Source: Taibaiella koreensis
Lineage (GTDB): Bacteria > Bacteroidota > Bacteroidia > Chitinophagales > Chitinophagaceae
DNA: 64,000 bases
Direction of reading: 5' to 3'
Assembly: GCF_003545715.1 (NCBI RefSeq)
Contig: NZ_QVNU01000004.1
Coordinates: forward strand, 248,001 to 312,000
Below, in pieces: positions 9,187 to 57,443 of this stretch (position 1 is the stretch's first letter; the number at the start of each line of letters is the position of its first letter). Both the position numbers and the translations under genes were made by a program. The notes beneath the pieces are model-generated. The model made no database searches. It was not told the origin of the DNA and saw only the letters and a list, made by a program, of their open reading frames with translations.

Positions 9187-9276
9187 GCTATGCGATGTTT
9201 CCGCCAAAAAAGAGTGGCACTTTGGTCCGGCATGCCTTATTTTTGCCGCTATCCCGTTTATCATTTTCAACGACAA

Positions 9277-10335
9277 ATGCTCAAAAAACGCCATATCCTT
9301 AATATTGCCCTGCTCCTGTTGAGCAGCTTACCCGTACTGGCACAGGAAGACATGAGCGCCGATGTACGGCGCATGCAGGAAAGCGCCCATGCTTATCTTG
9401 GCCGCGGCGACTATGCCAATGCCATTATGATGTTCAGCCAGGCTATACGCCAGGCGCCTTCGGAAGTATCGCTGCGCCGCGACCTGGCGTATACCTACCT
9501 GCTGTCGGGCGACACCAAGAAGGCCAAAGAGATCATCGATCCCGTGGTTTCGTCCGAAGCGGCCGATGAGCAGACCTACCAGGTGGCCAGTGCCGTAGAA
9601 AATGCCCTGGGCAACACAGGCAAAGCTAAACGGCTGCTGAATGAAGGCATTGCCAAATACAGCAATTCGGGCCTGCTTTACAATAGTAAAGGCAATATTC
9701 TCAACTCGGATAAAAGCACCAAAGATGCGCTTGAAGCGTATAACGCGGGCATCAAGGCCGAGCCCTCCTATCCTGTGAATTATTATAATGCCGCCCGGAT
9801 CTATTACCAGAACGATGATGCGGTATGGGCACTGATCTACGGAGAGATCTACGTAAACCTTGACCCTGCCTCGCCAAGAACTACGGAGACCAAAAAGATG
9901 ATGATCGACGCTTATCGCAAACTGTTCTCCCCCGGCAAAGACGAGGCACTGCCAGGTTTTAAAGCAGCCAGCAAAGGAGAGACCAGGACCCGGAGTTTTG
10001 CCGATATCTTCAAAAAACTGATGCTGCAGGGGGCACCGGCGATCAGCGAAGGACTCAATACCGAGAACCTGATCATGCTGCGCAGCCGCTTCATGCTGGC
10101 TTACAGTAAGGATTACAGCATCAACTACCCTTTCACCCTGATGTCGTACCAGGACAAAATGCTCCGCGATGGCGTCTATGACGCCTATAACCAGTGGCTG
10201 TTCGGCGCCGTGGACAACTCGCAGGAGTTTTCTCTTTGGGTAAAGGTAAACAGTAAGGAATACAGTGCTTTCGAAAACTGGCGGAAAAACAACCCGCTAC
10301 AGCCCACCCTTTACGATCCAAGACCGGGTAAATAA
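9277..10335 (+). CDS. Secreted TPR-repeat protein
   Basis: A tetratricopeptide protein of about 352 residues, exported by a signal peptide (LNIALLLLSSLPVLAQ). The start at 9277 is chosen because the signal peptide begins there; the open frame reaches back to 9190 but the extra residues do not look like a leader. TPR units are seen over residues about 30-190 (AHAYLGRGDYANAIMMFSQA; YTYLLSGDTKKAKEI). The remaining C-terminal part is mixed alpha and beta with no recognised domain. Probably a periplasmic or outer-membrane-associated scaffold; its partners are unknown. Confidence 0.8.
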   Translation: MLKKRHILNIALLLLSSLPVLAQEDMSADVRRMQESAHAYLGRGDYANAIMMFSQAIRQAPSEVSLRRDLAYTYLLSGDTKKAKEIIDPVVSSEAADEQTYQVASAVENALGNTGKAKRLLNEGIAKYSNSGLLYNSKGNILNSDKSTKDALEAYNAGIKAEPSYPVNYYNAARIYYQNDDAVWALIYGEIYVNLDPASPRTTETKKMMIDAYRKLFSPGKDEALPGFKAASKGETRTRSFADIFKKLMLQGAPAISEGLNTENLIMLRSRFMLAYSKDYSINYPFTLMSYQDKMLRDGVYDAYNQWLFGAVDNSQEFSLWVKVNSKEYSAFENWRKNNPLQPTLYDPRPGK

Positions 10336-10392
10336 GGTTTCCGTTGAAACACGTATTCCACATAGCTGCTTTTAATAATTCATTTTTTGGAT

Positions 10393-10400
10393 TACCTTTG
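10393..10400 (+). promoter_or_regulatory. -7 promoter element of acyl carrier protein gene
   Basis: TACCTTTG matches TAnnTTTG and is followed by GC; it ends 20 nt before the ATG at 10421. This indicates that the ACP gene starts its own transcript. Confidence 0.6.
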
Positions 10401-10420
10401 CGGCTTTCACTATAGCTTAC

Positions 10421-10678
10421 ATGGAAGATCTGAAAGTAACTTTAAAGCAACAGATTATTGAATCGCTGAATCTTCAGGGTATGAAGCCTGAAGATATTGA
10501 TGATAACGCACCGCTGTTTGGCGACGGACTCGGGCTCGATAGTATCGATTCTCTCGAACTGATGGTATTGCTCGAACGCAATTACGGCATCAAGATTGAA
10601 GATGCCCGTGAAGGCCGCAATATTCTCGCCTCTGTGCAAACGATGGCCGACTATATCCAGGCCAACCGGAAATTCTGA
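10421..10678 (+). CDS. Acyl carrier protein
   Basis: An 85-residue carrier protein whose phosphopantetheine site is GLDSIDSLELMVLLE; Ser in DSID is the attachment residue. The sequence differs from housekeeping AcpP (it has GLGLDSID and an acidic DDNAPLFGDG loop) and resembles the specialised ACPs of pigment or polyketide clusters. The ketosynthase gene follows 110 nt later in the same direction, which suggests that the pair works together to elongate a carrier-bound chain. Confidence 0.92.
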   Translation: MEDLKVTLKQQIIESLNLQGMKPEDIDDNAPLFGDGLGLDSIDSLELMVLLERNYGIKIEDAREGRNILASVQTMADYIQANRKF

Positions 10679-10788
10679 TCAGGAAAACGATCTTATACAG
10701 GCTGTTTGGAAGCACCGGCGATCCGATAGACGGGAACCGGCCCTTTTGAACAGCCTCATTTTTGACCCCTATTCCCGCTACCGCTATA

Positions 10789-12000
10789 ATGGTCCTGATC
10801 ACCGGCACAGGCATGATCACCAATCTGGGCGATACCGTTCCGGAAAACCTGCAGGCAATCCTGGAAGAAAGGCAGGCGCTATGCGCCCCTGAGATTCTGC
10901 AAACCCGCCACCGGGAAGAAATGGTAGTGGGCGAGATACGGAAAACCAACGGGCAACTGGCCGCCATGCTGGGATTGCCCGCCGAAGGGTTCAGCCGCAC
11001 GACACTCCTGGGCATCCTTGCCGTGCGGGAGGCGCTGCAAGGTTTACCGGCACAGCAACGCCTGCAGAAAAGGATCGCTTTCATCAACGCTACCACTGTA
11101 GGCGGCATGAGCGATGTGGAGAACTTCTATGGCGATATGATCTCCGCTGCTACCGAAGGCGATTTTCTCAGCTATATCGATTCACTCGATTGTGCCGACT
11201 GCACACAACGCATAGCCGATTACTTTGACCTCACCGGCTTTCAATGCACCATCAGCACGGCCTGCTCGTCGTCGGCCAATGCTCTGCAACTGGGCGCGCG
11301 TATGATTGAGAATGGTGAGGCCGACATTGCGATCTGTGGTGGCACCGACGCGCTTACACGATTCACCCTTAACGGCTTCAATGCGCTCAAGAATGTAGAC
11401 AAGCAGCCCACCAGGCCTTTTGACCAGCACCGCAACGGTCTTAACCTGGGAGAAGGCGCTGCCTACCTTATATTGGAATCGGAAGCTTCGGCCCGCGAAA
11501 GGGGCGCCACACCGGTGACTACCTTGGCGGGCTATGGCAATACCAACGAAGCCCATCATCCGACTGCCCCATCTCCCGATGGCGCCGGGGCCTTATTGAC
11601 CATGCAGGAAGCCCTTGCCGTGGCCGGACTGGATAAAGAAGCTATTGACTATATCAATGCGCATGGTACGGCAACGCTGGGCAACGATCTTTCCGAAGGT
11701 ACGGCTATCGAGCGCCTGTTTGGCAGGAGAAACTGCCCCTACTTCAGCTCTACCAAGGCCTTTACCGGGCATACCCTGGCCGCCAGCGGCGCCGTTGGCG
11801 CGATCGTATGCTGCCTGGCCATACAAGGATCATTTATACCGCCTAACCTGCGCTTTGAAACGCCTATGGAAGAGATTGGCATCGTACCGCAAAAGACCTT
11901 GCGCCGCGATACGCCCGTCCATTATGCCCTGGCCAATTCCTTCGGTTTTGGCGGCAACAACGTATCGCTGATCTTTGGATCATTAGATGTTAGATGTTAG
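10789..12000 (+). CDS. Beta-ketoacyl-ACP synthase (KAS I/II type)
   Basis: Condensing enzyme that extends an acyl chain with malonyl-ACP. The full Cys-His-His triad is present: C159 in STACSSS, H292 in NAHGTAT and H328 in FTGHTLAAS. The start at 10789 (MVLITGTGMITNLG) begins directly with the family's first beta strand; an in-frame ATG at 10762 would add nine unrelated residues. It is 403 residues long, normal for FabF. Its separate dedicated ACP and a degenerate homologue at 13314 suggest a ketosynthase/chain-length-factor type system (aryl polyene or flexirubin-like), rather than primary fatty-acid synthesis. Confidence 0.9.
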   Translation: MVLITGTGMITNLGDTVPENLQAILEERQALCAPEILQTRHREEMVVGEIRKTNGQLAAMLGLPAEGFSRTTLLGILAVREALQGLPAQQRLQKRIAFINATTVGGMSDVENFYGDMISAATEGDFLSYIDSLDCADCTQRIADYFDLTGFQCTISTACSSSANALQLGARMIENGEADIAICGGTDALTRFTLNGFNALKNVDKQPTRPFDQHRNGLNLGEGAAYLILESEASARERGATPVTTLAGYGNTNEAHHPTAPSPDGAGALLTMQEALAVAGLDKEAIDYINAHGTATLGNDLSEGTAIERLFGRRNCPYFSSTKAFTGHTLAASGAVGAIVCCLAIQGSFIPPNLRFETPMEEIGIVPQKTLRRDTPVHYALANSFGFGGNNVSLIFGSLDVRC

Positions 12001-37303: not shown

Positions 37304-38317
37304 ATGAAGAAGCTACTTCTACTTTCCGCGCTTGCTGCGGGCGTGCTGCAAGTACAGGCCCAGCAAGGTTCCTACTACGAAGACCTGGCCAAAAAAAGCG
37401 CCGAGACAAAAAACCTCGATACCGTTGCCTGGATCCATTCAGGCGTGCTGAATCTGGGTATCAACCAGGGTATCCTGCACAACTGGGCGGCAGGGGGCGA
37501 ACTGGCCTCGCTCACCGTCAATGGCCTTTTCAACGGTAGCCTTACCCGGTACAACGGGCGCAGCATCTGGACCAATAACCTGGATGCCGCGTATGGCCTT
37601 TTTTATGCTTACTCCAATTCTTTCGTACCCCGCAAAACGGATGACCGCATCGACCTGACCTCCAAATACGGCTATCGTCTCAGCGACTCGGGCAACTTCT
37701 ATGTTACCGGACTGTTTAACGCCAAATCCCAGTTTACCAAAGGTTACAATTATGATGCACCGGAATGGGATACCTTTTCCACTTCCAAGTTCCTGTCGCC
37801 GTTGTACCTCACCTTTGCCCCTGGTATTGAATACCGCAAAGGCAGCCAGATCAGCGTTTTCTTCTCTCCGGCCGCCGTGCGCACTACTTTCGTGAGCAAG
37901 TATTACACCGTCCGCGACGAGGCCGGCGCCTACGGCGTGGAGAACGGAAAGACTTTCCGCTTTGAATTGGGTGCTTATGTCACTGCCCGCTATGTAAAGG
38001 ACCTGACCAAGAACATCTCATTCCGCAGCCGCCTGGACCTGTACAGCAATTACCTGGCTAAAGATGTGTACAACAAGAGTGGCCTGCTGGTCAAAAAGGA
38101 TAATCCCGGCAATATCGATATCCTCTTCGACAACTTTATCGCGATCAAATTCTACAAATTCTTTTCTGTCAACCTGGGGGTAGTTGCCATCTACGACAAC
38201 GATGTACCCTATGTCAAAACCCTGGAAGATGGTACACCCAAGAACGAGCCTTACGAAGGCCTGGGCTGGTGGCAGATCAAGCAAGTGCTGAGCTTCGGCT
38301 TCAACTATAAGTTCTGA
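37304..38317 (+). CDS. DUF3078 domain outer-membrane protein
   Basis: A 337-residue exported protein: signal peptide MKKLLLLSALAAGVLQVQAQ, then WIHSGVLNLGINQGILHNW, which is the DUF3078 signature. Alternating beta strands to the C-terminal FNYKF suggest an outer-membrane barrel. Function unknown. ATG 37304 is chosen since the in-frame TTG at 37256 precedes the signal peptide. It probably shares a transcript with gldB and is followed by a strong terminator. Confidence 0.87.
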   Translation: MKKLLLLSALAAGVLQVQAQQGSYYEDLAKKSAETKNLDTVAWIHSGVLNLGINQGILHNWAAGGELASLTVNGLFNGSLTRYNGRSIWTNNLDAAYGLFYAYSNSFVPRKTDDRIDLTSKYGYRLSDSGNFYVTGLFNAKSQFTKGYNYDAPEWDTFSTSKFLSPLYLTFAPGIEYRKGSQISVFFSPAAVRTTFVSKYYTVRDEAGAYGVENGKTFRFELGAYVTARYVKDLTKNISFRSRLDLYSNYLAKDVYNKSGLLVKKDNPGNIDILFDNFIAIKFYKFFSVNLGVVAIYDNDVPYVKTLEDGTPKNEPYEGLGWWQIKQVLSFGFNYKF

Positions 38318-38334
38318 CGATATCAGCCTTTATC

Positions 38335-38377
38335 AAAAAATATCCCGGTCCTGTTACGAGACCGGGATATTTTTTTC
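38335..38377. terminator. Bidirectional Rho-independent terminator
   Basis: TATCCCGGTC / GACCGGGATA form a 10-bp stem, flanked by A6 on the left and T7 on the right, so it works for the plus-strand DUF3078 gene and the minus-strand RiPP pair. Confidence 0.85.
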
Positions 38378-38392
38378 TTGCTCATAATTTCT

Positions 38393-38644
38393 TTATGGCT
38401 GAGGTTCTGCTTCGGCAATAGGCGCCGGCTGCGCTTCGCAGTTATACAGCTCGCTCTCCCTTTTCAATTGTCCGCAATGATAGGGATTATTGGCGCCGAG
38501 TCCTTTAGATTCCCTGCAAAATTGTCCCATGGACAGGGAATAGGTAAAGCCGCCCCTGATCGCTTCCTGGCTGTCTTCGTGCAGCGCCATAATTCGTTTT
38601 TTTACCAGCCGTAATGGCCCGCTGTGCAAATTGATTTTTTTCAT
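38393..38644 (-). CDS. RiPP-like precursor peptide B (GG leader, Cys-containing core)
   Basis: An 83-residue peptide. The leader has the Bacteroidota GG-leader pattern L11-x-L13-x-K15-x-x-I18-x-x-L21 and a double glycine at 31-32. The core has Cys43, Cys57 and Cys69, many Ser/Tyr residues and a Pro/Glu-rich tail. It aligns without gaps through residue 64 to peptide A, 17 nt upstream (shared: GGFTY-LS-G, C43, LGA-NNP, C57). Such peptides are precursors for lanthipeptide or other modified natural products (family knowledge, TIGR04149-like). No modification enzyme is nearby. Confidence 0.75.
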   Translation of the reverse strand: MKKINLHSGPLRLVKKRIMALHEDSQEAIRGGFTYSLSMGQFCRESKGLGANNPYHCGQLKRESELYNCEAQPAPIAEAEPQP

Positions 38645-38661
38645 AAACGAAGGTTTTAAAG

Positions 38662-38910
38662 TTATGCTTCCGGTAACTGCTCCTCTTGCGCCTGGGCCAT
38701 TTCGGTACAACCATGAACATCCGATGCAATAGCAACGCCGCATGCTCCCGGGTTGTCTGCCCCAAGCCGTTGAGACCTCCGGCAACGATAACCCAGGGAA
38801 AGCGCATAGGTGAAACCACCCTGGATATCGGCCTGGCTTTGGCTGGTCAATGCCATCACCTGCTTTTTCTTCAGGCTGAGTTTCTGGCATTTAGGATTTA
38901 CTTTCTTCAT
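38662..38910 (-). CDS. RiPP-like precursor peptide A (GG leader, Cys-containing core)
   Basis: An 82-residue peptide in tandem with peptide B on the minus strand. The leader pattern is L11-x-L13-x-K15-x-x-V18-x-x-L21 with GG at 31-32, and the core has Cys43, Cys57 and Cys68 with FTYALSLG after the GG. The GG site would be cleaved by a C39-type peptidase during export (family knowledge). The upstream region contains the palindrome AGCATTAAAAATGCT. No transporter, peptidase or LanBC-like gene lies within the window, so maturation must be in trans or absent. Confidence 0.75.
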   Translation of the reverse strand: MKKVNPKCQKLSLKKKQVMALTSQSQADIQGGFTYALSLGYRCRRSQRLGADNPGACGVAIASDVHGCTEMAQAQEEQLPEA

Positions 38911-38966
38911 AGTCTTTCATTTAAATCATTAAGAAACAGATCATACAGATCCTGATGAATTCATAA

Positions 38967-39005
38967 TTAATGCTAAAATACATTATTAAAAGCATTAAAA
39001 ATGCT
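38967..39005 (-). promoter_or_regulatory. Palindromic element upstream of RiPP precursor pair
   Basis: AGCATTAAAAATGCT (38991-39005) is a perfect 15-bp palindrome; a further half-site AATGCT lies at 38969-38974. It sits in an AT-rich 274-bp divergent intergenic region, about 80 nt from the start of peptide A. Candidate operator. Confidence 0.45.
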
Positions 39006-39184
39006 AAAAAGAATAAAAAATGAATACAAAGTAACCAGGCCAAACGAGTCCCAACAGCATAAGCATGTAGTCACGGAAAACCTGTATTTTTTGCGTAATG
39101 CTATGATAAAAGTGTGCTGCAGCTTGCAGGGGCTATTTGAGCCGGTTACATTTACACTCGCAAACAGCCTCAATTCTTCAACAT

Positions 39185-39943
39185 ATGGAAGCACAGATAG
39201 CGCAACTGAAAAAAGACGTCGCCCGGTTAAAACTATATGCGGCGATCATTACCCTCATATTCTTCTCTTTCATACTCTATTCGTTCAATCAGAAAGAGCG
39301 ACCGGCGCCATTTAAAGAGATCAACGCCGAAAGGATCAATATCGTAGAGCCCAACGGACAACTAAGGATGGTGATCGCCAACAAAGAGCGCTCGCCCGAA
39401 GTATTGACCCACGGTAAAGGCTACCAGCCACCGATCCCCGGTCATAACCGTCCCGGCATCATTTTTTATAATGATGAAGGCACCGAGAACGGCGGACTTG
39501 TATTTTCCGGAAAAAGCGACAGCAATGGTCACTATTATGCCTCAGGACACTTCTCCTTTGACCAGTACAACCAGAACCAGGTGCTGTACCTGCAATATGG
39601 CGACGAGAATGGTGAGCGGAGCACAGGCTTGCATGTGGACGACTGGCAGGAGTCGCCTCCTTTTTGGGAATGGCGACGCCAGTACCGTGAGGCGCAAAAG
39701 CTGGCGCCCGGCGCCGAAAAAGAGGCTTTGCTGAAACGCCTTATGGAGCCCACGCCGGGCAACCCGGCTTATGCACAAAGAGTATTCGTGGGTAGAAATA
39801 CCGAAAAAGCAGCTGTACTGCTGCTTTCCGATAAAGCCGGTAACCCGCGGTTGCGCTTGCTTGTAGATAGTACCGGCGCTGCGCGCATCGACTTCCTTGA
39901 CGAAGCAGGGCGAGCAACCTATAGCCTGCCCGACCGGCGATAG
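39185..39943 (+). CDS. Hypothetical membrane-anchored protein
   Basis: A 252-residue protein. A short N-terminal coiled coil (EAQIAQLKKDVARLKLY) precedes one transmembrane helix (AAIITLIFFSFILYSF), and the rest is an exported, mostly beta domain with many Gly/Asn/Asp turns (INIVEPNGQLRMVIANKE; GIIFYNDEGTENGGLVF). Recurring IDFLDEAGRATYSLP-like strands suggest a small beta-repeat fold. No function is recognised. The ATG 39185 is used; the in-frame TTG at 39137 is weak. Confidence 0.7.
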   Translation: MEAQIAQLKKDVARLKLYAAIITLIFFSFILYSFNQKERPAPFKEINAERINIVEPNGQLRMVIANKERSPEVLTHGKGYQPPIPGHNRPGIIFYNDEGTENGGLVFSGKSDSNGHYYASGHFSFDQYNQNQVLYLQYGDENGERSTGLHVDDWQESPPFWEWRRQYREAQKLAPGAEKEALLKRLMEPTPGNPAYAQRVFVGRNTEKAAVLLLSDKAGNPRLRLLVDSTGAARIDFLDEAGRATYSLPDRR

Positions 39944-39952
39944 CTGCGCTGG

Positions 39953-40504
39953 TTAAGCCACCGGTGCATAAGTGATCTCCAGTACACCCAGATCAAGCTC
40001 GGAGATGGCTTTGCGTTCCAGCCCGCTAAGCACGCCTTCTTTAAAGAACCTTTGTCCCCGTCCCATGATATGCGGATGGAGCATTACCCTGAGCTCATCC
40101 AGCAGTCCTTCCGCAATGAGGCTGTTGACCAGTTCGCCGCTACCCTGCACCAGGATATTGCCGGTTCCATTGGCCTTGATGTCCTTCAGCCGGGCCACGA
40201 AGTCTTCGCCGAGGATCGTGGTATTTTCCCAGGGCGCCGTCTTCAGCGTGTCGGATACGACGTACTTTTTGGTTTGGTTCAGCTTATCGGCCACCCCCAT
40301 TTCATTGTTCTTCAACGACGACCAATAGGGATACAGCATTTCATAGGTCTTGCGGCCGTAAAGCATGGCGTCGCAATCCTGGATATTCTGTGTAATGCGT
40401 GCAGCGCGGCTGTCGCTGTGATAAGGGTTGAACCATTCTGCCATCAGGGTGGCGTCGAAGATGCCGTCCAGCGACATCCATACTGTTGCGATGATCTTGC
40501 TCAT
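39953..40504 (-). CDS. Dihydrofolate reductase-family (RibD C-terminal-like) protein
   Basis: A 183-residue DHFR-fold reductase of the RibD_C group. It starts with KIIATVWMSLDGIFDA, followed by MLYGRKTYEMLYPYW and GNILVQGSGELVNSLI, the signatures of these NADPH-dependent proteins. Function in vivo is usually unknown. Start set at 40504 (MSKIIATVWMSL); a few codons upstream are also open. Single gene with its own promoter, next to an AraC gene on the same strand. Confidence 0.92.
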   Translation of the reverse strand: MSKIIATVWMSLDGIFDATLMAEWFNPYHSDSRAARITQNIQDCDAMLYGRKTYEMLYPYWSSLKNNEMGVADKLNQTKKYVVSDTLKTAPWENTTILGEDFVARLKDIKANGTGNILVQGSGELVNSLIAEGLLDELRVMLHPHIMGRGQRFFKEGVLSGLERKAISELDLGVLEITYAPVA

Positions 40505-43259: not shown

Positions 43260-44096
43260 ATGGCATCAACCGGTTACCAGATCAAGCTCCCACAGTTCGA
43301 AGGCCCTTTCGACCTGCTCCTGTTCTTCATCGAGCGGGATGAGCTCGATATCTATAATATCCCGATTCATACACTTACCCGCGATTTCCTGGACTATATA
43401 CATCACCTGGAATCGCTGAATATAGAGCTGGCCAGCGAGTTCATCCTGTTCATTTCTACCCTGATGCGGATCAAAGCCAAAATGCTGTTGCCCCGCCGCG
43501 AGCTGGATGCACAAGGCAACGAGATCGATCCCCGTCACGAACTGGTGGATAAGATCCTGGAATACAAACGCTTTAAAGAAGCGGCAGCTACTATGGCCAT
43601 GATGGAGGCTGAGCGCCTGCTCCAGGCCCGCCGCGGCAATATACGCAAGGAGCTCGAAGAGCTGGGCCAAACCTATGCCGAAGGCACTGAAGTGCAGACC
43701 GTAACCCTGTACAAGCTGATGAGCACCTTCGAAAAGGTAATGAAACGCTTCAAAGACAGGAATGAGAAGCCACAACATGTGGTGGTCAAGTACAACTACT
43801 CGCAGGAGGGACAACGCCTGTACCTGATCGAAGAAATGAAGCAAAAGAGAAAGGCTTCGTTCGAGGTTGTCTTTTCAATATGTGAAAACCGGATACACGC
43901 CATTTTTACTTTCCTGGCCATGCTTGAGCTGGTGCAACAGAAATACCTTACGGCGCTCATCGGCACAGGACGCAACAATTTTATTATCGAATGGAACGAT
44001 GAACGGCCCGAAGACATTGACGTGTTTATCGGAGGCCCGGCCGGTCCCGGCGAAGAGCCTGATCATACAGGCGAGCTCGGTTTTTCCGCTGAGTGA
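43260..44096 (+). CDS. scpA: Segregation and condensation protein A
   Basis: A 278-residue kleisin that bridges SMC heads and, with ScpB, compacts and separates chromosomes. The N-terminal signature QFEGPFDLLLFFIERDELDIYNI is diagnostic, as is LESLNIELASEFILFISTLM. The C-terminal winged helix lies around VFSICENRIHAIFTFLAMLELVQQ. Length is normal for Bacteroidota. The ATG at 43260 starts directly before the family N-terminus. No ScpB gene in the window. Confidence 0.95.
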   Translation: MASTGYQIKLPQFEGPFDLLLFFIERDELDIYNIPIHTLTRDFLDYIHHLESLNIELASEFILFISTLMRIKAKMLLPRRELDAQGNEIDPRHELVDKILEYKRFKEAAATMAMMEAERLLQARRGNIRKELEELGQTYAEGTEVQTVTLYKLMSTFEKVMKRFKDRNEKPQHVVVKYNYSQEGQRLYLIEEMKQKRKASFEVVFSICENRIHAIFTFLAMLELVQQKYLTALIGTGRNNFIIEWNDERPEDIDVFIGGPAGPGEEPDHTGELGFSAE

Positions 44097-52689: not shown

Positions 52690-52929
52690 TTAAAAGGTTC
52701 GCGGGCATACCGTACAATCGACGCAGCCGGTATTGCCGATCGGTGGCATGGGTTCTTCGCCGCACCATTGAGAAGCACAGGCGGAAACGGAAAAACAACC
52801 TCCAAGCGGATCGACAGACCATTGCGGCGTAGCGCCGCCAAAGGCTTTAGTCTTTTCTGTATTGGTCAGGCCACCGATCCTGGCCTTGTTCAGCTGTAAT
52901 TTTGCTGCTTTGATCTTTGTCTTTTTCAT
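52690..52929 (-). CDS. RiPP-like precursor peptide C (GG leader, six-Cys core)
   Basis: A 79-residue peptide. The leader pattern L11-x-L13-x-K15-x-x-I18-x-x-L21 and GG at 31-32 are in exactly the same register as in peptides A and B, 14 kb away. The core after GG is Gly/Pro/Ser/Thr-rich with six Cys at 45, 51, 56, 69, 72 and 75, a better crosslinking candidate than A or B. It is alone on its transcript with a 14-bp-stem terminator; no modification, export or immunity gene is next to it. Confidence 0.78.
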   Translation of the reverse strand: MKKTKIKAAKLQLNKARIGGLTNTEKTKAFGGATPQWSVDPLGGCFSVSACASQWCGEEPMPPIGNTGCVDCTVCPRTF

Positions 52930-53630: not shown

Positions 53631-55388
53631 ATGAAAAAAAGCCAACTCTTCCCCAGGAACGTGCGCAAGGCTGCTTTCCTGCTGTGCATGATGACGGCAG
53701 GCCTCCCGGCCTTTGCATCCAGCCATAGAGAGGCGCCGCTGATCTCGAGTGATCCGCAGGCCGACAACACCGATCTCTATGCCTTCAGAAGCCCGGATGA
53801 CCCCGGTACCGTGACGATTATTGCCAATTATATTCCCTTTCAGCTACCCGAAGGCGGTCCTAACTATTATACCTTCGGCGCCAACATCCGTTACGAAATC
53901 CACATTAAGAACAAAACGACAACAACCGGCGACGATATTACCTACCGCTTTACGTTTAACCAGACCAATGAGGACAACACGACCTTCTTTAATATCAGGC
54001 TGGGACAACAGAACCTGAAGACAAACTATACCTGCGAAAAAAGCACCGATGGCGGTAATACCTTTACAACAATACTGAGCAATGGCGTGGTTCCGCCACC
54101 CAATATAGGCCCCCGCTCCATCATCAGCACGCCTGTGGGCCTGGGCGTTGCCTCTTACGGAACGTTGGTTCAAAATGCCATTGGCACTGCCAGCACAGGC
54201 GAAACCTTGTTTTGCGGCCCGGCCGATGATCCGTTCTTTGTAGACCTGGCCGGCGCTTTCGATGCCGGCAATTTCCGCCCCGAAGGCAATACCGTTAATG
54301 CACCCAAAGATGGCCTGGCACGGTATAATGTCAATACGATCGCGATCAAAGTGCCGATAAGCCTGTTACAAAAGGATGGTAAAGATGCCGGACAGGCAGC
54401 CAATATTCTCGATCCCGATTTTGTGATCGGTGTATGGGCATCTGCCAGCCGGATGCAAATAAAGACACTAAATGCCGACGGTACAGCAACCGCTTCCGGC
54501 GATTGGGTACAGGTTTCACGCCTCGGCATGCCCCTTACCAACGAGGCGGTAATACCGGTGGGCACTAAAGACAAATGGAACGCCACTACGCCCTACAATG
54601 ACGTACAGTTTGCCGCATTCTTCAAGAATCCCGAGCTCGCGCTTTATATGGATGATTCGCAATTTGGCGGTGCGGTTCCCGCTCTTGGCGCCTTGCGCAT
54701 ACAGAAAAGCGCCTTGCAGACCTATGATTTCCGTAATGGCAAACCCGGTCTTTTTGCCTTGCGCAACACTGCAGCCGTAAGCGGCACGGCCTTTGATGAA
54801 ACCTTGTTCGGACCGGTGCTGCTGCCCGATAATGCGAGCCCCCGTGCGGTAGACATCCTTCCGATCTTCTACACCGGCGTGCCCAACCTGGCGCCCTACC
54901 AGCTGGCAACAGGCAAGGCGGGCAATCCGCTGGCGGCCGGCAAACCATTTATCAACAACTTCCTGCCTACCCTCGGCGATATGCTGCGGCTCAATATGGC
55001 GGTCCCGCCCACCCCCAGAAACGATCCGAACTTCAGTTCCCTGGGAATCGTTAAAGCCGCTGTGCTGGGTCTTACCGATGCAGCCTACAACACCAATGCT
55101 ACCCTCCAGTTTATTCCCAATATGGATGGCTTTCCCAATGGCCGCCGCCTGGAAGACGATGTGACCACCATAGAGCTCCAGGCCGTATCGGGTGTGGCTT
55201 TGGCCGCTATCGGGCTCTGGTACGACGACTATACACCTTCATCCACTTCTCCCGTAACGCCTCAATTACTGAATGTCCTGGGCTTTACGGCAGGTGTTAC
55301 CCATAACGATACCACCTTTAAGGCGGCCTTCCCATACGTGCAGGAACCCTGGCGTGGTTACGACTATACCTTACAGGCCCGGTTCTGA
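53631..55388 (+). CDS. DUF4331 domain protein without sorting domain
   Basis: A 585-residue exported protein, signal peptide up to LPAFA. The mature N-terminus SSHREAPLI-DPQADNTDLYAF is the DUF4331 hallmark, and the fold is probably mostly beta. It shares long identical runs with the next gene (NPELALYMDDSQFGGAVP, NDPNFSSLGIVKAAVLGLT). It stops shortly after the last shared block (PWRGYDYTLQARF) and lacks the C-terminal domain of its paralogue. First gene of a five-gene co-directional run; its function is unknown. Confidence 0.88.
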   Translation: MKKSQLFPRNVRKAAFLLCMMTAGLPAFASSHREAPLISSDPQADNTDLYAFRSPDDPGTVTIIANYIPFQLPEGGPNYYTFGANIRYEIHIKNKTTTTGDDITYRFTFNQTNEDNTTFFNIRLGQQNLKTNYTCEKSTDGGNTFTTILSNGVVPPPNIGPRSIISTPVGLGVASYGTLVQNAIGTASTGETLFCGPADDPFFVDLAGAFDAGNFRPEGNTVNAPKDGLARYNVNTIAIKVPISLLQKDGKDAGQAANILDPDFVIGVWASASRMQIKTLNADGTATASGDWVQVSRLGMPLTNEAVIPVGTKDKWNATTPYNDVQFAAFFKNPELALYMDDSQFGGAVPALGALRIQKSALQTYDFRNGKPGLFALRNTAAVSGTAFDETLFGPVLLPDNASPRAVDILPIFYTGVPNLAPYQLATGKAGNPLAAGKPFINNFLPTLGDMLRLNMAVPPTPRNDPNFSSLGIVKAAVLGLTDAAYNTNATLQFIPNMDGFPNGRRLEDDVTTIELQAVSGVALAAIGLWYDDYTPSSTSPVTPQLLNVLGFTAGVTHNDTTFKAAFPYVQEPWRGYDYTLQARF

Positions 55389-55418
55389 TCTCTTCCTTCT
55401 TTCATCAAAAAATAAAAC

Positions 55419-57443
55419 ATGAAAAGCTATATCCATAAAATAGCGGCCGCGCTGGCGATCTGCCTCCTGCCGCAGGTTGAGCTGCAGGCCTCGTCGCACA
55501 GGGAAGCGCCATTGATTGCCAATGACCCCCTGGCCGACAATACTGACCTGTATGCCTTTAAAAGTCCCTGCGATCCCAACAAGATCGTGCTGATTGCCAA
55601 CTATATCCCTTTTGAGCATCCGGCGGGAGGTCCCAACTGGTACACCTTTGGCGAAAATATCCGCTATGAGATCCATATCGATAACAATGCCAATACCCCC
55701 GGCGATGATATCATTTACCGCTTTACCTTTCACAGGGAGAACGAGGACGGCACTACCTTCTTCAACATCAGGCTGGGTCGGCAGAACATAAAGACCACTT
55801 ATACCTGCGAGCGCAGCATAGATGGCGGCGCCAGCTTTACTGCTATCGTAACAGCAGGTGTGGTACCCCCGCCCAATATAGGCCCCCGCTCCATCAATAA
55901 TGCTACCGTGGGCCTGGGCAGCGATTATGGCAGCCTGATGACGGCTGCTGTACAAAGTCCTGCAACCGGTGAAAAGATATTCTGCGGTCCCATCGACGAT
56001 CCCTTCTTCGTTGACCTCGGCGGCGCTTTCGATGCCGGTGGCTTTCGCCCTTCAGCGCAAGCCCGGGATGGCCTGGCCAAATTCAATTGCCATTCCATCG
56101 TGATCGAGGTACCCGTAGCGACGCTGCAGAAAGATGGTAAAACCGTATCGCAGGCGGCCAATATCCTTGACCCCGATTTCGTGATCGGTGTATGGGCTTC
56201 GGCCAGCCGCCAGCAAATTACGACGCTGAGTAATAACGGTGATCCCGCAGGTGTAAGCGGCGACTGGGTACAGGTATCCCGTCTGGGCATGCCACTTACC
56301 AATGAAGCGGTGATCCCTATCGGCAGCAAAGACCTGTGGAACAGGACCAACCCTTATACCGGCGACCTTACCTTCGCTGCTAATTTCTCCAATCCCGAGC
56401 TGGCCTTGTATATGGATGACTCGCAATTTGGCGGCGCCGTACCGGGCTTGTCTGCCCTGCGCATCCAGGCCAACTCCCTGGGCGCATTCGACTTCCGTAA
56501 TGGTCATTCCGGCTTATATGCTTTGAAAAACACAGCAGCCGTAGCAGGCACAGCACTGGATGATGCCGCCTTCGGGACCGTCCTGCTCCCTAACAACACC
56601 AGTCCGCGTGCCGTGGATATATTACCGATCTTTTATACCGGCGTACCCAACCTGCGTCCTTACCAACTCGCTACCGGCAAAGGCGGCGATCCGCTGGCAA
56701 CAGGCAAGCCGTTCATCAACAACTTCCTGCCCACGCTCAGCGATGCGCTTCGCCTCAACATGGCCGTACCGGCTACTCCCAGGAATGATCCCAACTTCAG
56801 CTCACTGGGCATTGTCAAGGCAGCGGTGCTTGGGCTTACCGACCCGGCTTATAATGCCGATGCCAGCCTGCAGTTTATCCCCAATATGGACGGGTTCCCC
56901 AACGGCCGGCGCCTCGAAGACGATGTGACTACGATTGAGCTGCAAGCCGTATCCGGCGTGGCCCTGGCCGCTATAGGCCTGTGGTACGACGATTTTACCG
57001 GTGGCAGTCCCGTAACGGCGCAGCTGGGCAATGTGCTGGGCTTTACTGCAGGTGTAACGCATAACGATACCACTTTCCAGGATTGCTTCCCCTATGTGCA
57101 GCAACCCTGGCGCGGCTTCAACGGCGATAGCTATACCGGTCCCGGCAGCACAGGCATAGCCGGCGTAGGTATGGGCGCACCGGAAGCGATCATGGTTGCC
57201 TTCCCCAATCCGTTCAGCAGCATGGTGAACCTGAAGTATAAGCTGGCGGCCAAGGGCGTTGTAAGCATCCGCATTACCGATCCTGTAGGCCGCGTAGTCG
57301 CTACGATAGAAGCAGGAAGCCAGCCTGCGGGTGAGTACACCACACGTTGGAGTGGCGCTGGTCTTACTGCAGGTACCTATTATGCACAGATCACTGTAAA
57401 CGGCAAGACATTCAGGAGTGTAAAAGTAGTTAAAGTAAAATAA
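55419..57443 (+). CDS. DUF4331 domain protein with T9SS sorting domain
   Basis: A 674-residue paralogue of the previous gene, 30 nt downstream. It has a signal peptide, the SSHREAPLI-DPLADNTDLYAF opening, the shared core, and an extra type A T9SS C-terminal domain (residues about 595-674: FPNPFSSMVNLKYKLAA to the basic KVVKVK end). The CTD targets the protein to the cell surface via the type IX system, so the pair probably supplies a soluble and a surface-anchored form. Confidence 0.92.
   Translation: MKSYIHKIAAALAICLLPQVELQASSHREAPLIANDPLADNTDLYAFKSPCDPNKIVLIANYIPFEHPAGGPNWYTFGENIRYEIHIDNNANTPGDDIIYRFTFHRENEDGTTFFNIRLGRQNIKTTYTCERSIDGGASFTAIVTAGVVPPPNIGPRSINNATVGLGSDYGSLMTAAVQSPATGEKIFCGPIDDPFFVDLGGAFDAGGFRPSAQARDGLAKFNCHSIVIEVPVATLQKDGKTVSQAANILDPDFVIGVWASASRQQITTLSNNGDPAGVSGDWVQVSRLGMPLTNEAVIPIGSKDLWNRTNPYTGDLTFAANFSNPELALYMDDSQFGGAVPGLSALRIQANSLGAFDFRNGHSGLYALKNTAAVAGTALDDAAFGTVLLPNNTSPRAVDILPIFYTGVPNLRPYQLATGKGGDPLATGKPFINNFLPTLSDALRLNMAVPATPRNDPNFSSLGIVKAAVLGLTDPAYNADASLQFIPNMDGFPNGRRLEDDVTTIELQAVSGVALAAIGLWYDDFTGGSPVTAQLGNVLGFTAGVTHNDTTFQDCFPYVQQPWRGFNGDSYTGPGSTGIAGVGMGAPEAIMVAFPNPFSSMVNLKYKLAAKGVVSIRITDPVGRVVATIEAGSQPAGEYTTRWSGAGLTAGTYYAQITVNGKTFRSVKVVKVK

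Follow-up and report, generated by a model that had tools for sequence, protein, structure and literature searches.

Results

Two paralogous precursor genes in a variable intergenic slot

The window, as we call the whole 64,000-nucleotide stretch of the Taibaiella koreensis genome analyzed here (contig NZ_QVNU01000004.1, positions 248,001 to 312,000), contains two small minus-strand genes, P0001 and P0002, which are separated by 17 nt and encode Cys-containing peptides with a leader ending in GG (Table 1). The original prediction had described these two reading frames together with GG at residues 31-32, an L11-x-L13-x-K15 pattern in the leader and Cys residues at positions 43, 57 and 68 (A) or 69 (B), all of which were found in both peptides, as was the reported gapless alignment over residues 1-64 (32/64 identical). 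The leader of precursor A additionally contains Cys8, absent from that description. When the common MKK was left out, 29 of 61 residues were identical, as compared to a mean of 3.9 and a maximum of 14 in 100,000 shuffles, an excess large enough that P0001 and P0002 are, judged by their sequences, paralogues. Each core contains three Cys and five Ser/Thr residues and is in this respect capable of ring formation, and the GG, the three Cys and the FTY, LS, LGA, NP and CG positions have been kept between both paralogues. Nonsynonymous divergence between the two genes was about half of the synonymous divergence (pN/pS 0.364/0.73 in the leader and 0.432/0.841 in the core), corresponding to a leader dN/dS of approximately 0.18 from few sites, with the synonymous sites of the core being saturated. 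The identical length and spacing of the two genes, which had been taken as a sign of selection, are by themselves a sign of common descent and no more. The synonymous sites of the pair are near or at saturation.

Table 1. Positions of the gene pair, its leaders and surrounding features in the window
Feature	Position	Strand	Description
Precursor A (P0001)	38662..38910	-	82 aa; leader 1-32 ending in GG, core 33-82; Cys43, Cys57, Cys68
Precursor B (P0002)	38393..38644	-	83 aa; leader 1-32 ending in GG, core 33-83; Cys43, Cys57, Cys69
Leader of precursor A	38815..38910	-	L11-x-L13-x-K15-x5-L21, G31-G32
Leader of precursor B	38549..38644	-	L11-x-L13-x-K15-x5-L21, G31-G32
DUF3078 gene, conserved flank	37304..38317	+	Pfam; present in 4/4 genus genomes searched (own included)
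Stem-loop, likely terminator	38326..38380		GC-rich, A and T runs on either side; RNA fold -24.3 kcal/mol
252-aa ORF	39185..39943	+	No Pfam match at 1e-6; within block missing at T. helva site
RibD_C domain gene	39953..40504	-	Pfam; directly adjoins DUF3078 gene in T. helva (empty site)
Third precursor in window	52690..52929	-	79 aa, Cys-rich core; NF038153 13.5 bits; genome-derived model 29.7 bits

The stem-loop, which separates the pair from the convergent DUF3078 gene, is likely a terminator, although a consensus terminator scan of positions 38250-39250 called none despite its strength, and a sigma-70 consensus scan found no promoters near or upstream of the pair. Between the DUF3078 and RibD_C genes the window holds 1.6 kb with the pair and the 252-aa ORF, whereas the equivalent site in T. 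helva consists of the DUF3078 gene, 273 nt and the RibD_C gene, with the pair missing. In T. chishuiensis and in a further congener, G003, the neighbor is instead a ScpA-like gene, whose counterpart in the window is located at 43260-44096. From the empty site in T. helva and these differing neighbors it follows, as far as synteny can tell, that the pair is either a lineage-specific gain or was lost in T. helva, and that it occupies a variable slot.

The absence of RiPP enzymes from the window, as had been predicted, was borne out for LanB and LanC by whole-genome searches with PF04738 and PF05147; C39, radical SAM and YcaO domains were checked in part, with none listed in a Pfam scan that covered 49 of the 57 non-overlapping ORFs of at least 100 aa at cut-offs (1e-6 for 20 ORFs, 1e-12 for 29) that weak domains may escape. 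The third precursor, which was not part of the original prediction, has an orthologue in T. helva with a core identity of 85%. Two adjoining DUF4331 proteins of 585 and 674 aa are encoded at 53631-57443 on the plus strand.

The leaders resemble those of class I lanthipeptides

The original prediction had assigned the pair to a Bacteroidota GG-leader type of RiPP-like precursor with a crosslinkable core, resembling TIGR04149 (GG_sam_targ_CFB), a family of short Bacteroidota precursors with GG. The general type was supported; TIGR04149 was rejected for the pair, as neither peptide matched at E values up to 10. A TIGR04149 profile search of the genome likewise gave no matches, but carries little weight since 14 control genomes gave none either. 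Instead, by profile score the leaders come nearest to NF038153, the family of class I lanthipeptide leaders, to which P0001 and P0002 scored 21.6 and 17.6 bits in hmmscan, just under and below the curated cut-off of 22, respectively, and 23.2 and 18.7 bits in a six-frame genome search. With a leader model derived from 124 other precursors of the same genome, the three in the window being left out, P0001 scored 34.4, P0002 24.9 and the third window precursor 29.7 bits, while the best scores among controls were 10.2 bits (10,000 MKK-keeping shuffles of both peptides) and 9.4 bits (14,040 shuffled window ORFs). No Pfam family was found in the pair (P0001 scanned without its Met), and P0001 matched no PDB sequence up to E 10. 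Both leaders contain the complete LxLxKx5L motif and the GG end, a combination that a recent survey reports in several Bacteroidetes class I LanAs, whose clusters often encode a C39 protease as well (PMC7268733).

The genome contains a large dispersed set of precursors

A search of the genome (5.94 Mb, 24 contigs) with NF038153 gave 129 matches at E<=10, 93 of them over the cut-off, three of these only together with in-frame neighbors. Removal of one match within a protein that by eye resembles an M48 protease and of one that stops after 26 residues left 127 precursors of 50-109 aa, which are spread over 12 contigs and 95 loci (2 kb linkage), 72 of these loci holding a single precursor. GG-ending leaders are found in 125/127 and the strict LxLxKx5L in 107/127. 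The cores are rich in Cys (13.6%) and Thr (12.1%), and the similarity among them is limited, a blastp listing at E<=1e-3 comprising 60 lines, many of which are double lines for one pair. P0001 and P0002 are atypical members of this set: C+S+T make up 16% of their cores as compared to a set median of 33%, tied second-lowest among the 127, and charged residues make up 20%.

The sequence TAnnTTTG, presumably the Bacteroidota -7 element, precedes 25 of the 127 precursors (mean 8, maximum 16 in 200 shuffles) and is absent upstream of the pair. In addition, a palindromic repeat with a length of about 140 bases, dispersed in the genome, was observed near several precursors (L004, L005, L024, L026, L083 and others); a copy of this candidate vehicle of gene spread was not found in the window.

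LanB, LanC and a C39 transporter are encoded elsewhere in the genome

Matches to LanB were found at two loci, on contigs C16 (1066 aa) and C20 (shorter, 922 aa). The former, here referred to as the hub, encodes a LanB with PF04738 and PF14028 next to a C39-ABC transporter and an HlyD-type protein. The hub LanB matches 9g04, a thiopeptide-type biosynthesis protein, over residues 29-1034 and, partially, the lantibiotic dehydratase 5ehk, and the hub transporter (731 aa) can be aligned from residue 4 to residue 724 with 4ry2, a structurally characterized bacteriocin transporter of the ABC type. The shorter LanB (L039:1-5000 and 9203-11971) lies, as seen by eye, a few kb from Tra-like conjugation genes and may be part of a mobile element. 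Four LanC genes are located elsewhere without a LanB alongside, a leader match lies no more than a few kb from each of them, and all four proteins contain the motifs WCYG and CHG, presumably the zinc-ligand motifs of LanC. A 381-aa protein without Pfam matches (L043:11048-12190) overlaps the start of one LanC gene and adjoins a precursor.

LanB and LanC thus occur together in one genome, and, like the hub C39-ABC and HlyD genes, all of them lie outside the window; certain other members of the precursor set are located near LanB or LanC genes. The term orphan, which had been applied to the pair, is consequently true only locally, and as the window yielded matches to neither LanB nor LanC, the pair would represent an unclustered variant of a class I system.

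Leaders and enzymes co-occur in related genomes

Within the genus, NF038153 leader matches at E<=1 numbered 79 in G001, 71 in G002 and 0 in G003, and LanC matches 6, 4 and 0, respectively. The congeners with 79 and 71 leader matches, which are the counts for T. chishuiensis and T. helva, carry LanB as well as LanC, and the genome-derived model recovered 79 and 69 precursors, respectively, from stretches fetched from these two genomes, which left out one match per genome inside a large frame (342 aa in T. helva, 3614 aa in T. chishuiensis). In G003 the same searches, positive in the other congeners, yielded no leader, LanB or LanC match.

In a search that scored up to 38 candidates per genome, leader matches at E<=0.001 were present in 11 of 195 family genomes, with a maximum of 7 outside the genus, the counts within the genus being taken from the separate searches given above; LanB was present in 24 of the 195. 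LanB was found in 10/11 leader-positive but only 14/184 leader-negative genomes (Fisher p 1.2e-9, kinship ignored); the leader-positive genome with zero LanB matches is G141, an assembly of 130 contigs. At the phylum level at least 9 of 395 genomes had leader matches, with at most the best 19 candidates per genome scored. The richest of those listed besides our own genome, G393, has at least 19 leader matches, many of them scoring equally, packed into roughly 3.3 kb (C1:2257066-2260358), a dense and clustered array unlike the scattered precursors of T. koreensis.

Scanning genome contigs with the hub LanB confirmed 14 loci, including T. helva (89%), T. chishuiensis (56%) and other Bacteroidota, and leader-like precursors were detected in 11 of these (none in L110, L111 and L113). 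In 10 of the 14 loci plus related stretches that were searched, the order LanB-C39-HlyD recurs in T. helva and, together with LanC genes, in T. chishuiensis. Orthologues of the pair were found neither in the genus nor in 394 family genomes (at most the best 14 candidates per genome scored); at E<=0.01 at least 8 genomes matched, our own included, the matches other than the pair being mainly leader-only or interrupted by stops.

Selection on the precursors

For 126 of the 127 precursors (one lacks an ATG where expected), orthologues were sought as reciprocal best hits by core with at least 25 bits, and were obtained for 49 in T. helva and 29 in T. chishuiensis, of which 46 and 18 pairs, respectively, were used for dN/dS; since pairs were picked by core similarity, core conservation is biased upward, and with dS near saturation the ratios are approximate. 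In the 46 T. helva pairs dN/dS was 0.087 for the core and 0.142 for the leader, and the conserved core residues amounted to 272/276 Cys, 218/253 Thr and 120/144 Ser. The 18 T. chishuiensis pairs gave equal values for core (0.204) and leader (0.205), with 84/100 Cys conserved. In both comparisons these alignments show Cys as the most highly conserved residue, which would be expected of ring-forming peptides but equally of disulphide peptides. As 77 of the 126 precursors have no T. helva match by core reciprocal best hit, the precursor set also turns over. For P0001 and P0002, for which no orthologue was found, the sequence comparisons support selection far less well than for other precursors encoded in the genome.

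Discussion

The features described above suggest that P0001 and P0002 are probably two diverged class I lanthipeptide (LanA type) precursors that belong to a dispersed set of about 127 and are modified in trans by unlinked machinery. This interpretation builds on the observed paralogy of the pair, its leader class, the dispersed set, the enzyme and transporter genes, the co-occurrence of leaders and LanB across genomes and the conserved cores of orthologous precursors. LanB enzymes dehydrate Ser and Thr using glutamyl-tRNA, and LanC enzymes close thioether rings. For Bacteroidota peptides, a route involving GluRS and tRNA-Glu has been described (PMC9993889). In T. koreensis the LxLxKx5L and GG leader would recruit the common, unlinked machinery, LanB would dehydrate the core Ser/Thr with glutamyl-tRNA, one or more of the four LanC would close thioether rings at Cys43, Cys57 and Cys68/69, and leader removal after GG as well as export of the product would fall to the C39-ABC transporter and its HlyD partner. 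For these two peptides, modification, export, the choice of LanB and LanC and any activity of the product are inferred. Against the interpretation stand the atypical cores, the sub-cut-off NF038153 hmmscan scores, the lack of a LanC beside the hub LanB, the leaders without a LanB match in G141, the missing consensus promoter upstream of the pair, the failure to find an orthologue of the pair together with the synonymous saturation between the two paralogues, the choice of orthologous pairs by core similarity, and the equal core and leader dN/dS and lower Cys conservation in the T. chishuiensis comparison. Compared with the original prediction of a RiPP-like precursor pair, the GG-leader type is thus retained, the TIGR04149 assignment is given up and the orphan status applies only locally, with the pair being two of 127 precursors.

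The composition of the two cores, which are charged, poor in Ser/Thr and outliers in the set, could also mean that the GG leader is used only for C39 cleavage and export, the cores staying unmodified or carrying disulphides and acting as bacteriocin-like or signaling peptides. GG leaders serve the export of many unmodified peptides, and a full-length C39-ABC transporter exists in the genome. Nevertheless, we consider this unlikely, as each core has retained three Cys and five Ser/Thr and as the leader goes beyond GG alone in carrying the complete LxLxKx5L, which the accessible part of the survey ties to LanB-type clusters (PMC7268733). The same deviation in core composition would also fit modification of the pair by another class of RiPP enzyme, for example a radical SAM or YcaO enzyme, rather than by LanB and LanC; with a leader of the LanB-linked class and no match of the pair to TIGR04149 this appears very improbable.

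It is also conceivable, though quite improbable, that P0001 and P0002 are decaying or silent duplicates, recently gained in this strain and without a product. The absence of the pair from the T. helva site, the lack of an orthologue among the best (at most 14) candidates from each of 394 family genomes and the missing promoter consensus would fit such a scenario, but both ORFs are intact, the halved pN relative to pS applies to leader and core alike, and the GG, the Cys and the shared short motifs have not been lost.

Returning to lanthipeptide precursors modified in trans, we regard it as somewhat favored that Taibaiella harbors a class I trans system with more than 100 substrates, in which one LanB-C39-HlyD hub, together with a second LanB and several LanC, would serve mostly single, scattered precursors. 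The products shared between species would be under purifying selection, unlike a disposable combinatorial library, and newcomers such as the pair would settle in intergenic slots, their cores diverging to become charged.

If this is true, genome mining restricted to the neighborhood of the enzymes would overlook the majority of lanthipeptide precursors in genomes of this kind. Since the cores of orthologues are conserved across species and those of paralogues mostly differ, so large a repertoire could be tested for its function one gene at a time, and G003, the congener without a match to leaders, LanB or LanC, offers a natural comparison.

Comparison with known lanthipeptide systems

In the partial literature covered on Taibaiella lanthipeptides and RiPPs and on class I lanthipeptides of Chitinophagaceae, no such dispersed set is described. 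The pinensins and the Pedobacter lusitanus lanthipeptides also are class I products of Bacteroidota; they are known from ordinary clusters and are not known as a dispersed set. The precursors reported here have the leader motif, the GG end, the C39 peptidase, LanB and Cys-bearing cores in common with the Bacteroidota class I precursors of NF038153, as far as these are described in the available sections of the survey (Walker et al., 2020; PMC7268733). That survey, according to the same sections, limited the distance between a LanC-domain protein and a precursor to seven genes; 62% of its class I precursors had no second predicted precursor in their cluster, and one class I cluster stood out as an exception by containing 10 (PMC7268733). 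In contrast to what these sections describe, the 127 precursors of T. koreensis are dispersed over 95 loci, and neither LanB nor LanC accompanies the pair in the window.

A similar layout is known from the prochlorosins and synechococsins, which, in the portion of the source available, likewise combine a large number of scattered precursors, sharing a GG leader but varying in their cores, with few trans-acting enzymes (PMC10783134). These are class II (LanM) products of cyanobacteria with Nif11 leaders, the richest strain in that portion having 83 precursors (PMC10783134), whereas T. koreensis has LanB and separate LanC enzymes, 127 precursors and cores which, wherever an orthologue is present, have been conserved between sister species. 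By analogy, the pair and its set most likely represent a class I counterpart of the prochlorosins, in the sense of a likeness of layout and not of membership, as the leaders resemble NF038153, and a LanB/LanC set tolerating more than 100 natural substrates would then be the class I counterpart of ProcM.
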